From Candidatus Endomicrobium procryptotermitis (lineage in GTDB: Bacteria > Elusimicrobiota > Endomicrobiia > Endomicrobiales > Endomicrobiaceae), in assembly GCA_031279415.1 (NCBI GenBank), contig JAITIP010000009.1:1-34421 (forward strand): a DNA stretch of 34,421 bases, read 5' to 3'. The notes under the pieces are model-generated. The model was not told where the DNA came from, searched no databases, and saw only the letters and a program-made list of their open reading frames with translations. Of the stretch, positions 2 to 5,399 are shown in pieces. The translations under genes were made by a program, and so were the position numbers. Numbering within the stretch: position 1 is the first letter of the stretch; each line of letters begins with the position of its first letter.

Positions 2-436
2 TTCATATTCTTCTCCACTTATGATCTTTATATTCCGACGCGCTCGTGGGGGCGCGGGGGCCGCCCCCCAAAAAATTTGTCTATTTTTATAAAAATGGAC
101 ATCGATAATTATGAATACAGAACTCTGCCGCAGCTGGCTCCATATTTTAATAAAATAAACGGTCTGGCAGTAGAATTCCATGAATTAGATATTGCAGCTG
201 TAAAATTTACCGAAATAATGGATTTGCTGATGAACAGCTTTTATATTGCCCACATACATGCAAACCTTTGGCGGCTTAATTTATGTAACAAAACTTCCTA
301 AAACTTTAGAAATAACGTTTATAAACAAAAATATGATGAAAAAACAAGTATTGCCATCATCGCTTAATTATCCTGTAAAAGGTCTTGATTATCCATATGC
401 GACAACACTAAAGAAGATATACCGATTGAATTCTAA
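2..436 (+). pseudogene. FkbM-like methyltransferase C-terminal part, twice frameshifted
   Basis: This is the C-terminal part of a SAM-dependent methyltransferase of the FkbM type, probably acting on a sugar or glycan. The segment IKMDIDNYEYRTLPQL matches the family's K-x-D-I-E-G-x-E-Y strand. It runs in one frame to about base 263 and continues in another frame with GGLIYVTKLPKTLEITF, joined at HIHAN. A second shift near 396-400 is needed to reach the natural-looking tail KEDIPIEF and its stop at 434-436. The next gene's ribosome site follows directly, so this was a same-strand gene cluster. The 5' part lies outside the window and a GC-rich hairpin interrupts the upstream frame. Family assignment is fairly sure; substrate unknown. 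Confidence 0.72.
47..70. repeat. GC-rich hairpin inside the decayed methyltransferase
   Basis: TGGGGGCG (47-54) pairs with CGCCCCCCA (62-70, one extra C) around a 7-base loop. This is an almost pure G/C block in DNA that is otherwise strongly AT-rich. It sits just before the conserved KMDIDNYEY strand of the methyltransferase, where a short variable loop would be expected, so it may be an inserted palindromic element. The insertion itself is inferred because no intact copy is visible. Confidence 0.45.
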
Positions 437-2556: not shown

Positions 2557-2689
2557 TTTAATAAAATTATTCCAAAAACAATAAAAAACATAAATGGAAA
2601 ATAATTTTATGTAGACTGCAAATAAATTCTGTAGTTAATATTTATATGCAAATTGTAAAAATAATAAAAAGCAGTGTGTTATATATATC
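2557..2689 (+). repeat. Leader repeat copy 1 (upstream of ATPase 1)
   Basis: This stretch matches 3938-4066 along its whole length with scattered substitutions and small indels. Shared blocks include TTATTCCAAAAACAATAAAA, GGAAAATAATTTTATG, GACTGCAAATAAATT, GTTAATATTTATAT and AATAATAAAAAGCAGTG. It contains no reading frame of note. Short inverted ends ACTGC and GCAGT bound its second half. It lies between a dead methyltransferase and the palindrome of the first ATPase gene. Confidence 0.85.
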
Positions 2690-2705
2690 GATTCTGCTAA
2701 TTTGA

Positions 2706-2753
2706 TTTTTTGTATGAAATTTGATATTATAATATCAAATTTCATACAAAAAA
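2706..2753. promoter_or_regulatory. Perfect 48-bp palindrome centred on a TATAAT box, upstream of ATPase 1
   Basis: Two 24-base arms are exact reverse complements with no loop. The outer ends are TTTTTTGTATG and CATACAAAAAA. The centre reads GATATTATAATATC, so a consensus -10 box (TATAAT, 2728-2733) sits on the axis of symmetry. It ends 31 bases before the ATPase start codon. No good -35 box was found at 17 bases. An operator overlapping the promoter is the simplest reading; a cruciform or an mRNA hairpin is possible too. Confidence 0.75.
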
Positions 2754-2784
2754 CAATAATATAATATTATTTTTGGATTAAAAA

Positions 2785-3915
2785 ATGATAATACGAGATT
2801 TACAGCAAACCATAGAGCGCTGGCTATTTAAAAATAAGATAGTTTTAATTTACGGCGCAAGACAAGTAGGAAAAACCACATTAAGCAAACAAATCCTTGA
2901 AAAATATTCAAAAATAAAAAAGTCGCAGTATTTTGACTGCGATGATATTTCCGTTAAGCTCCTTTTTGAAACAACCAATGCCGCGTCTTTAAAACAAATT
3001 ATCGGAGATAAAGACTTTATAGTTTTAGATGAAGCTCAAACAATAAAAGATATAGGAAAAACTCTTAAAATTATTTATGACCATATCCCTCAAGTGCAAA
3101 TTATTGCCACAGGCTCATCAAGTTTTGACTTAGCAAATAAATTATCCGAACCTCTTACTGGCCGAGCATTGTCTTTTATACTTTATCCCTTTTCAATAAG
3201 AGAAATATCGTCTGCAAACGGTTTTGTAAATGTCTCGGGAAACTTAGAAAATATTCTTATAAGAGGAACTTACCCTGAAATATATGGTAAAGCAAAAGAC
3301 AGCGCGGAAATTTTTCTTAACTCATTGGCAGGCAGTTATCTGTATAAGGATATTTTGATGTATGAAAAATTTAAGAATCCGCATCAGCTTTTAGAGTTAT
3401 TGCAGTTGACGGCTTTGCAGATAGGCAGCGAAGTTTCTTACACGGAAATAGGGCAGAAAATGGGGTTAAACCGCATTACTGTAAGAAATTACATTGATGT
3501 ATTAGAAAAATGTTTTGTTCTTTTTAAATTACATTCTTTAAGCAGAAATAAAAGAAATGAAATATCTAAATCAGTAAAAATTTACTTTTATGATTTAGGA
3601 ATAAGAAATACTCTTATACAGTCTTTTGCTCCTTTAAATTTACGAAATGATACCGGTGCCATTTGGGAAAATTTCTGCATTTTGGAACGCAAAAAATTAA
3701 ATCAGATAAAAATGAGAAACGTAAACCAATATTTCTACAGAACATACTCGGGCGAAGAAATTGATTACGTGGAAGAGTATGACGGTAAATTTGACGGATA
3801 TGAATTTAAATTCGGCAAAGAAACTGCAAAATCTCCCAAAAACTTTTTGGCGGCTTATCAAAACTCAAGCGTTAAAACAATAAACAAAGACAATTGGGCT
3901 GATTTTCTGCTGTAA
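2785..3915 (+). CDS. AAA+ ATPase with DUF4143-type C-terminus (1)
   Basis: A 376-residue P-loop ATPase of the AAA_14/DUF4143 type, whose cellular role is unestablished to my knowledge. Walker A is GARQVGKTT (24-32), Walker B is FIVLDEAQ (D82, E83), and ATGSSS (108-113) fits sensor 1. Residues about 213-248 look like a winged helix (SYTEIGQKMGLNRITVRNYI). The tail carries EEIDYVE (D327) and YEFKF (E340, K342), resembling a PD-(D/E)XK fold. The family is often found as many diverged copies per genome. It is preceded by leader repeat 1 and a 48-bp palindrome, and followed 22 bases later by leader repeat 2. No strong ribosome site precedes the ATG. The gene is full length. Confidence 0.88.
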   Translation: MIIRDLQQTIERWLFKNKIVLIYGARQVGKTTLSKQILEKYSKIKKSQYFDCDDISVKLLFETTNAASLKQIIGDKDFIVLDEAQTIKDIGKTLKIIYDHIPQVQIIATGSSSFDLANKLSEPLTGRALSFILYPFSIREISSANGFVNVSGNLENILIRGTYPEIYGKAKDSAEIFLNSLAGSYLYKDILMYEKFKNPHQLLELLQLTALQIGSEVSYTEIGQKMGLNRITVRNYIDVLEKCFVLFKLHSLSRNKRNEISKSVKIYFYDLGIRNTLIQSFAPLNLRNDTGAIWENFCILERKKLNQIKMRNVNQYFYRTYSGEEIDYVEEYDGKFDGYEFKFGKETAKSPKNFLAAYQNSSVKTINKDNWADFLL

Positions 3916-3937
3916 GCAGAGGTGACACATCAAATTA

Positions 3938-4066
3938 TTTAATAAGGTTATTCCAAAAACAATAAAAAATAGACGGAAAATAATTTTATGGAGACTGCAA
4001 ATAAATTTTATAAGTTAATATTTATATATAAATTGTCAAAATAATAAAAAGCAGTGTTTATATATC
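3938..4066 (+). repeat. Leader repeat copy 2 (upstream of ATPase 2)
   Basis: Second copy of the repeat at 2557-2689, same orientation, starting 22 bases after the stop of ATPase 1. The two copies are far more alike than the two ATPase genes they precede. Substitutions are scattered and small indels occur near the middle and the end. The stretch is noncoding. Confidence 0.85.
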
Positions 4067-4131
4067 TATCCTATTTTGAATTGCAAAATGCCGCATCAAA
4101 ATTATTTGCCGCTTCAATTTCTAAAAATACT

Positions 4132-4168
4132 TTTGTATAATATGGAATAAACTTCCATATTATACAAA
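4132..4168. promoter_or_regulatory. 16-bp perfect inverted repeat with TATAAT, upstream of ATPase 2
   Basis: TTTGTATAATATGGAA (4132-4147) and its exact reverse complement (4153-4168) flank the 5-base loop TAAAC. TATAAT lies at 4136-4141 in the left arm, and TTCAAT 17 bases upstream (4113-4118) is a passable -35 box. The right arm ends 10 bases before the start codon, next to the AGAGG ribosome site. The outer ends TTTGTAT and ATACAAA are the same as in the palindrome before ATPase 1, while the cores differ. Confidence 0.75.
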
Positions 4169-4178
4169 GAGGTCATTG

Positions 4179-5399
4179 ATGAATAATTTGGACAGAACCT
4201 TATCTCCGATAATCAAAAAATCATCCGAGGCTTTTAAAGTTTTGCTTCTGACGGGACAAAGGCAAGTTGGAAAATCGTCATTATTTGAATTTTTAGCTAA
4301 AGGTTCAGGAAGAAAAACCGTAACACTTGATGACATAAGATTAAGAAAACTTGCAAAAGAGGATCCTGAGCTGTTTTTGCAGCAGTATCACCCGCCGATA
4401 ATTATTGATGAAGTTCAATATGCTCCAGAGCTGTTTCCGTATATAAAAATTTATACGGACAAACATAAAGATGAAAAAGGCGCTTTTTGGCTTACAGGCT
4501 CTCAGAAATTTCGTTTAATGGAAGGAATACAAGAATCTTTGGCAGGCAGGGTCGGCATCTTTGACTTGATGGGTTTGTCATATAAAGAAAAAACCGCTAA
4601 CGCGTTTAAATCCATCCCTTTTATCCCGTCGTTAATGACAATAAATCAAATTACAAAACAAAATATCAAAAATATATATGAGACAATATGGGAAGGGTCG
4701 CTTCCTGAGTTAATCGTCAATAAAAAACTTGACAGGGAAAGATATTATTCGTCGTATATTCAAACATATATAGAAAGAGATGTTAAAGATTTTTACAATA
4801 TTGAAAAACCCATACAGTTCTTCAATTTTATATCGATAGTAGCTGCGCAAACAGGAAATTTGCTTAACTATGCTTCTTTAGCCAAAGACGCAGGAATAGA
4901 TAATAAAACAGCTCAAACTTGGCTTGGTGTTCTTGAACGTTCAGGCTTAGTTTATTTGCTAAAGCCATATTTTCCTAATGTGACAAAGCGCATAATAAAA
5001 ACTCCGAAGATGTATTTTTTGGATACGGGTTTAGCCGCATATCTTACGCGATGGACATCTCCCGAAACATTAATGAACGGGGCTATGGCAGGGCATATGC
5101 TTGAAACATATGTTATCGGAGAAATTTTAAAATCATATTTGCATAATGGGAAAGAACCTTTAATCTACTTTTATAGGGACTTTAATCAAAATGAAATTGA
5201 TATTTTGCTTGAAGAAAACGGAACTATTTATCCTATAGAAATTAAAAAGACAGCAAATCCAAGCTTGTTAGACGTTAAAGCTTTCAGCCAAATAGGAAAA
5301 TTAGGCAAAATAACAGGTACAGGAGCAATACTATGTTTTAAAAATGAAAGGGTTCCTTTATCCCGTGAAATAGTTTCAATCCCGATTTGGGAAATATAA
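4179..5399 (+). CDS. AAA+ ATPase with DUF4143-type C-terminus (2)
   Basis: A 406-residue relative of the ATPase at 2785, clearly diverged from it. ATG 4179 is preferred over TTG 4176 because AGAGG lies 6 bases upstream. Walker A is GQRQVGKSS (26-34), Walker B is PPIIIDEVQ (D77, E78), and WLTGSQ (104-109) fits sensor 1. Residues about 226-261 form a winged-helix-like segment (LLNYASLAKDAGIDNKTAQT). The C-terminus has NEIDILLE (D341) and IEIKK (E354, K356), a clear PD-(D/E)XK-like pattern. All key residues are present, so it looks functional beside many dead neighbours. It comes with a leader repeat and an inverted repeat, like ATPase 1. Family sure; function unknown. Confidence 0.9.
   Translation: MNNLDRTLSPIIKKSSEAFKVLLLTGQRQVGKSSLFEFLAKGSGRKTVTLDDIRLRKLAKEDPELFLQQYHPPIIIDEVQYAPELFPYIKIYTDKHKDEKGAFWLTGSQKFRLMEGIQESLAGRVGIFDLMGLSYKEKTANAFKSIPFIPSLMTINQITKQNIKNIYETIWEGSLPELIVNKKLDRERYYSSYIQTYIERDVKDFYNIEKPIQFFNFISIVAAQTGNLLNYASLAKDAGIDNKTAQTWLGVLERSGLVYLLKPYFPNVTKRIIKTPKMYFLDTGLAAYLTRWTSPETLMNGAMAGHMLETYVIGEILKSYLHNGKEPLIYFYRDFNQNEIDILLEENGTIYPIEIKKTANPSLLDVKAFSQIGKLGKITGTGAILCFKNERVPLSREIVSIPIWEI

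Follow-up and report, generated by a model that had tools for sequence, protein, structure and literature searches.

PDC-S01, in which an ATPase is fused to a PD-(D/E)XK domain, is a phage-defence candidate listed by PADLOC. Among prokaryotic defence systems it has been reported to rank fourth in abundance, with validation pending for most PDCs (PMC12988326), and a survey of the rumen met it more often than any other individual locus (PMC13356809). Here we describe two tandem PDC-S01 genes, each preceded by a long palindrome, in a 34,421-nucleotide stretch of DNA from Candidatus Endomicrobium procryptotermitis (the window, which is contig C9 of a 2.0-Mb genome comprising 46 contigs in all). 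Both window proteins match the PDC-S01 profile and have the same fusion of ATPase and PD-(D/E)XK domain. An operator, a DNA-reading code and autoregulation are, in contrast, absent from the papers that we found on PDC-S01. Our analysis of these genes and their relatives, based on sequence comparison, suggests that a PDC-S01 protein probably binds an operator in its own promoter as a dimer, via both its winged helix and its PD-(D/E)XK domain, and so represses its own gene.

Autorepression at a palindrome has precedents. ParA of the plasmid P1 type and autoregulated toxin–antitoxin operons are examples, the promoter being repressed through a palindrome by the very ATPase or DNA-binding complex that it expresses, much as is proposed here. 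The window ATPases differ in that no second small partner gene is found for either of them in the window, each standing alone behind its own palindrome, and in that the nuclease-fold domain apparently takes part in base reading. Defence islands controlled by RptR and similar repressors likewise have a conserved palindrome in their promoters, but RptR is a separate small protein and its palindrome is 6 bp long (PMC12255303), whereas here the putative effector would itself be the apparent repressor and the site spans 35 bp. Elsewhere, a Thermus DUF4143 gene was reported to be upregulated 6.6-fold in the presence of a plasmid, only when Argonaute was also present, and the authors tied the change to Argonaute (PMC4406477). 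This rise fits with an inducible promoter and shows that a member of the family can be induced, without revealing the mechanism. We found no publication linking DUF4143 with palindromes, and just one that mentions DUF4143 by name, although most subscription papers and preprints lay outside the search, making this weak evidence for novelty.

The two units lie between a set of decayed genes and the prfA-prmC-murA region, and the layout proposed for them in the first-pass annotation of the window (leader, TATAAT-bearing palindrome, intact DUF4143 ATPase gene) was found again in the sequence. In unit A, the leader (2557–2689, + strand) is followed by palindrome A (2706–2753), the putative operator of ATPase A, and by the gene for ATPase A itself (2785–3915, + strand, 376 amino acids). 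In unit B, the leader (3938–4066, + strand) precedes palindrome B (4132–4168) and the gene for ATPase B (4179–5399, + strand, 406 amino acids). Palindrome A has 24-bp arms with neither spacer nor mismatch; palindrome B has 16-bp arms and a 5-nucleotide loop. Both contain the sequence TATAAT.

The encoded proteins share an AAA_14 domain, a winged helix and a PD-(D/E)XK (DUF4143) domain. Pfam matches lie far above the cut-offs for ATPase A (PF13173, AAA_14, 8e-32; PF13635, DUF4143, 9e-35) and for ATPase B (AAA_14, 5e-25; DUF4143, 1.7e-46), and matches to the PADLOC PDC-S01 profiles extend over nearly all of each protein, covering residues 1–375 of ATPase A (7.5e-142) and 3–404 of ATPase B (2.4e-105). 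The Walker A and B motifs are intact in both (GARQVGKTT in A, GQRQVGKSS in B). Across 71 aligned relatives, K32, D77 and E78 of the ATPase domain are invariant, as are E309, D341 and E354-x-K356 of the PD-(D/E)XK signature, the stretch from D341 to K356 being encoded at 5199–5246 (+ strand) in ATPase B. The catalytic residues of ATPase A are conserved within its subfamily. Residues 301–389 of ATPase B give a weak match to the CARF-PDDEXK profile (3.9e-5), and searches of PHROGs and NCBIfam yielded no informative match. AlphaFold2 models of ATPase B (predicted local distance difference test, pLDDT, 93.9; predicted template-modelling score, pTM, 0.93) and of ATPase A (pLDDT 90.6, similar in form) comprise an ATPase domain, then a helix-turn-helix succeeded by a strand, and at the C-terminus an alpha/beta domain bearing D-E-x-K. 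No homologue in the PDB was found by sequence with a single protein, and a profile gave weak matches to the ATPase part only. The solved folds nearest to the ATPase B model are the archaeal ATPases SSO1545 (2fna, E 3e-7) and PABY2304 (2qen, E 4e-7), with TM-scores against it of only 0.44–0.52; we know of no operator for either.

Are palindromes a regular feature of genes of this type? Palindromes A and B score 24 and 16, respectively, whereas a score of at least 11 was reached in 5 of 480 dinucleotide-shuffled upstream regions, and the core of palindrome A, TGATATTGTAATATCA, is kept at the same place in the nearest relative (L081). By ATPase sequence, the relatives of this genome include Elusimicrobiota and Endomicrobia. 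The survey drew on about 100 DUF4143 genes of relatives, together with a second set of 83 whose loci belong for the most part to other phyla. Upstream palindromes were present at 33 of 96 DUF4143 genes in the Elusimicrobiota, compared with 6 of 170 other genes of the same loci (p 2e-11), and at 24 of 83 in the second set, compared with 7 of 201 other genes; some of the palindrome-positive controls are divergent genes sharing an intergenic region with a DUF4143 gene. The palindromes are particular to individual genes, each being present as a single copy in its locus. At one locus (L108, ~2798–2998), two divergent DUF4143 genes share a single intergenic region with palindromes.

Analysis of 179 upstream regions of DUF4143 genes from 18 phyla yielded a symmetric 35-bp consensus, TCGgCTAATaTGnAATnnnATTnCAtATTAGcCGA. 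Held-out validation was performed in both directions, regions overlapping any DUF4143 upstream region having been removed from the controls. A model trained on Elusimicrobiota recognised 44 of the 83 other DUF4143 genes and 1 of 247 control genes at 10 bits, and a model trained on the second set recognised 21 of 96 Elusimicrobiota DUF4143 genes and 1 of 191 controls at 2 bits. With a pooled model, 67 of the 83 genes of the second set score at least 8 bits, 18 named phyla including the Elusimicrobiota being represented, but the pooled model was trained in part on those same genes, so more trust can be placed in the held-out figures. Palindrome B, TTTGTATAATATGGAATAAACTTCCATATTATACAAA, fits the family operator at 20.1 bits with its 35-bp core at 4133–4167; this is the only site in its own genome with three or fewer mismatches, and none occurs in 59 relatives.

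Whole-genome scanning with a degenerate operator pattern (30 genomes, ~95 Mb) gave a similar picture: 16 of the 17 sites found lie directly 5' of a DUF4143 gene (15 genes, one of them with two sites), the lone site away from such a gene being an asymmetric match with one mismatch. The reversed pattern gave six sites. Two of the DUF4143 paralogues located by the scan were new, falling outside the set obtained by protein searching. Together with the held-out validation, these results bear out the earlier proposal that the palindrome belongs to the ATPase module. The search pattern suggested at that stage, TTTGTAT-N-ATACAAA, fared less well: taken literally it is too loose, giving five sites in the genome against four for the reversed control, with only the two long ones preceding the ATPase genes of the window; the test proposed with it comes out in favour of the palindrome in generalised form. 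In a Lachnospiraceae locus (L224, ~2880–2980), two tandem operators, both exact matches to the degenerate pattern, lie 60 bp apart in front of one DUF4143 gene.

The operator has a fixed relationship to the promoter. In 21 of 66 non-redundant genes, TTGAC starts exactly at -35 from the operator centre, and 24 of 45 genes with a good promoter have their predicted transcription start at the centre itself. The predicted sigma-70 promoter of ATPase B (TTCAAT-17-TATAAT, 4113–4141, + strand) is in the family register, with its start predicted 2 bp before the operator centre. A consensus scan also places a TG-extended sigma-70 promoter before ATPase A (TTGATT-17-TATTAT, 2702–2730, + strand), whose 9 of 12 consensus matches are equally common in shuffled sequence and so carry little weight alone. 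A conserved symmetric site thus overlies the promoter of ATPase B and of its subfamily, the corresponding place in A being taken by a palindrome of non-consensus type. With a start at or near the centre, the -10 box and the beginning of the transcribed sequence both lie within the operator, the classical position for the operator of a repressor. From the placing of the operator on the predicted promoter, we infer that each ATPase gene may control its own expression.

Which protein reads the operator? To address this, residues of the ATPase were compared with bases of the operator across 69 non-redundant genes (<80% identity). The strongest of all residue–base couplings joins residue 243 and the inner operator base 5 bp from the centre. 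Symmetry was not imposed, yet residue 243 couples separately with -5 and +5, residue 335 with -13 and +13 and residue 336 with -16 and +16. The top coupling is 1.10, compared with a maximum of 0.32 after operators were shuffled among genes, and 38 of the 50 strongest residue–base pairs lie inside the site where 19 would be expected. Flanking DNA has the same ancestry, and so serves as a control for relatedness; it has no comparable signal. Counted by half-site, residue 243 follows a simple code (K with G in 38/44, N with C in 33/34, P with A in 28/28 and V with A in 6/6), residue 335 pairs K or R with C (69/72) and T with T (17/24), and residue 336 pairs D with C (84/94), N never being found with C (0/18). 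When independent pairs were drawn from the tree, the association of C with N243 was upheld in 5.6 of 6 (p ~0.03) with no disagreements; the remaining pairs almost never disagree, in numbers too small for significance. In a further 41 genes used to check the code, the 243 rule held at 10 of 10 half-sites in the five genes scoring above 20, and a D336:C/N336:A rule held at 20 of 20 half-sites with scores of at least 14. The bases of the site therefore depend on residues of the site's own protein, in the case of residue 243 among closer relatives only.

In the ATPase B model, residue 243 opens the recognition helix (242–255), residues 241–255 being encoded at 4899–4943 (+ strand), whilst residues 335–337 lie in a loop that connects two PD-(D/E)XK-domain strands, just before E339 and D341 (residues 334–338 being encoded at 5178–5192, + strand). 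K243 of ATPase B is predicted to read G at positions ±5, and residues 335 and 336 to read positions ±13 and ±16. The idea that each ATPase reads its own palindrome via its winged helix, put forward in the first-pass annotation, is thus strongly supported by the operator motif, the genome scan and the symmetric covariation; what was not foreseen is an apparent part for the nuclease-fold domain in reading the operator, at its outer bases. Self-recognition by ATPase A is putative, being suggested by the position of its palindrome, by the perfection of that palindrome and by its partial conservation in one relative. The association, the conserved motif, the promoter register and the covariation are all direct products of computation.

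Physical binding, the dimeric state, repression, an inducer and the role of the nuclease are what we infer from them, and the following model can be proposed. Each unit would be self-contained: its promoter would be overlaid, at the -10 box and transcription start, by a long palindromic operator, and its gene would encode an ATPase–winged-helix–PD-(D/E)XK protein. Two copies of this protein (or more, in a higher oligomer) would sit on the operator of their own gene with two-fold symmetry. Within a half-site, the bases ~5–6 bp from the centre would be read by the first residues of the recognition helix (241–243 in ATPase B), and those 13–16 bp from the centre, roughly a helical turn beyond, by the loop at 335–337 ahead of the nuclease active site. 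As the -10 box and the start point lie under the operator, a bound protein should prevent transcription and hold expression of the gene down, and repression might be released by invading DNA or by another signal acting through the ATPase. The variety of palindromes among genes would reflect joint change of the operator and the specificity residues, allowing paralogues in one cell to avoid each other's sites.

If correct, a family-wide operator with a residue-to-base code would provide the very common but unexplained PDC-S01 with a predicted DNA ligand, making binding, induction and specificity testable at sites that can be predicted from sequence. It would also suggest an unusual role for a nuclease fold, the reading of bases, and offer a reason why many DUF4143 paralogues can coexist in one genome without cross-control.

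Several observations weigh against this model. A clear operator is lacking in roughly half of the genes (the pooled model scores at least 8 bits in 91 of 179), especially in distant branches and in subfamily A, whose palindromes are long but not of the family consensus. Tree-independent pairs are few and only one tested pair reaches p 0.05. At scores of at least 6 bits, the 243 rule fits 15 of 24 half-sites in the new genes and fails at 9, chiefly where distant relatives combine N243 with an A as the inner base. Part of the conservation of the left arm may be due to the -10 box and, judged by position alone, the site might also serve an activator or be purely structural. Finally, the GGA form of the operator occurs between genes in five related prophages (viral contigs), one of which has two copies.

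These five prophages are partly similar to staphylococcal phages, and no DUF4143 gene was seen near their GGA-form sites in the stretches fetched. Intergenic operator-like palindromes close to TTCGGCTAATGTGGAATTGTACTCCAGATTAGCCGAA were located in prophage loci at L241 2631 and 3754, L242 4493, L243 2140, L244 2015, L245 1350 and L248 12118. They may be decoys, triggers or sites of another protein. The GCA form had no match in viral contigs, the AAA form gave a single match there that was set aside as terminator-like, and a 37-bp operator query matched nothing among named phages, with a single partial match among plasmids. An extension of the model, which we regard as rather unlikely, is that PDC-S01 is a self-repressing sensor-effector whose PD-(D/E)XK nuclease fold contributes to sequence-specific DNA reading, and that operator-like sites carried or exposed by an invader pull the protein off its promoter, raising its level and bringing the nuclease to the invader. 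Were that so, the prophage sites would be a trigger or a decoy.

The same prophage sites can be read differently, as can the intact nuclease signature in all aligned relatives and the nuclease-fold loop that appears to read the site: the protein might bind the palindrome chiefly as a DNA target, for cutting, marking or tethering the locus, rather than for control of transcription. A regulator, however, would require just the arrangement seen, in which the site keeps a fixed register with the promoter and is centred on the start, and a nuclease that cut its own promoter would damage its own locus, and we consider this explanation improbable. It is considerably harder to maintain that the palindrome is read by some other host regulator common to many genes. 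Palindromic operators are indeed normally read by dedicated repressors, but here the base changes follow the ATPase's own residues, symmetrically in both half-sites, and the B site is unique in its genome, with 16 of 17 scan matches preceding DUF4143 genes; the chances of this being correct are slim.

That the palindrome is the end or target of a mobile element of the PATE or IS200/IS605 kind is very doubtful indeed. DUF4143 genes are numerous and patchily distributed, and IS605-derived PATEs bear palindromes near their termini (PMC3119063), so that short palindromes near a patchily distributed gene are common to both. Such elements have a palindrome near both ends, however, and here there is a single one per gene, over the promoter in fixed register, with no second copy in the loci examined and no transposase beside the ATPase genes in the window. 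Least credible of all is that the palindrome works at the RNA level (5' hairpin, attenuator or terminator), for although palindromes A and B fold as RNA far better than shuffled sequences (z -8.4 and -5.2) and the minus strand of site B resembles a terminator, transcripts with predicted starts at the operator centre would lack an intact pair of arms, most being without the left arm, and the bases covary with protein residues.

Self-repression at the palindrome leaves aside the leaders that precede it. The two copies, a non-coding direct repeat, are 89% identical across 131 bp, 2557–2689 aligning with 3937–4065, whilst the ATPase proteins are 29% identical, confirming that the leaders are far more alike than the genes. 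The suggestion that module and leader move as one, or that gene conversion maintains the leader, found no support: searches of the 2.0-Mb genome recovered only the two window copies, no full-length match was present in 59 relatives and no exact match of the leader core in viral contigs. No Rfam family came near its gathering score and the RNA fold of copy 2 is no better than that of shuffled sequences. The leader as a mobile or shared cassette was rejected, as in these searches it is confined to this locus. The arrangement might possibly stem from a gene brought in by recombination through an existing leader; gene conversion between the leaders may be another route to like leaders beside unlike genes.

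The surroundings of the units agree with the earlier description of intact ATPases among dead genes. An FkbM-type methyltransferase gene (446–1326) is split into two frames, and interrupted pieces of an HTH_3 (HipB-like) gene and of the N-terminal part of HipA (1529–2230) are the remains of a hipBA toxin–antitoxin pair. A third DUF4143 gene in the same genome is broken (contig C2, L013 1572–2785, minus strand); it has an intact relative in another genome (L119 1698–3000), and in both cases the same kind of gene, probably encoding a glycosyltransferase (protein start QYELSICIP...), comes after the DUF4143 gene, so that gene order is kept. A repeat common to two contig ends (window 45–190 and L013 1–120) lies beside long runs of G or C, and the far end of L013 has a run of at least 17 C; the shared repeat and the G/C runs probably broke the assembly at these points.

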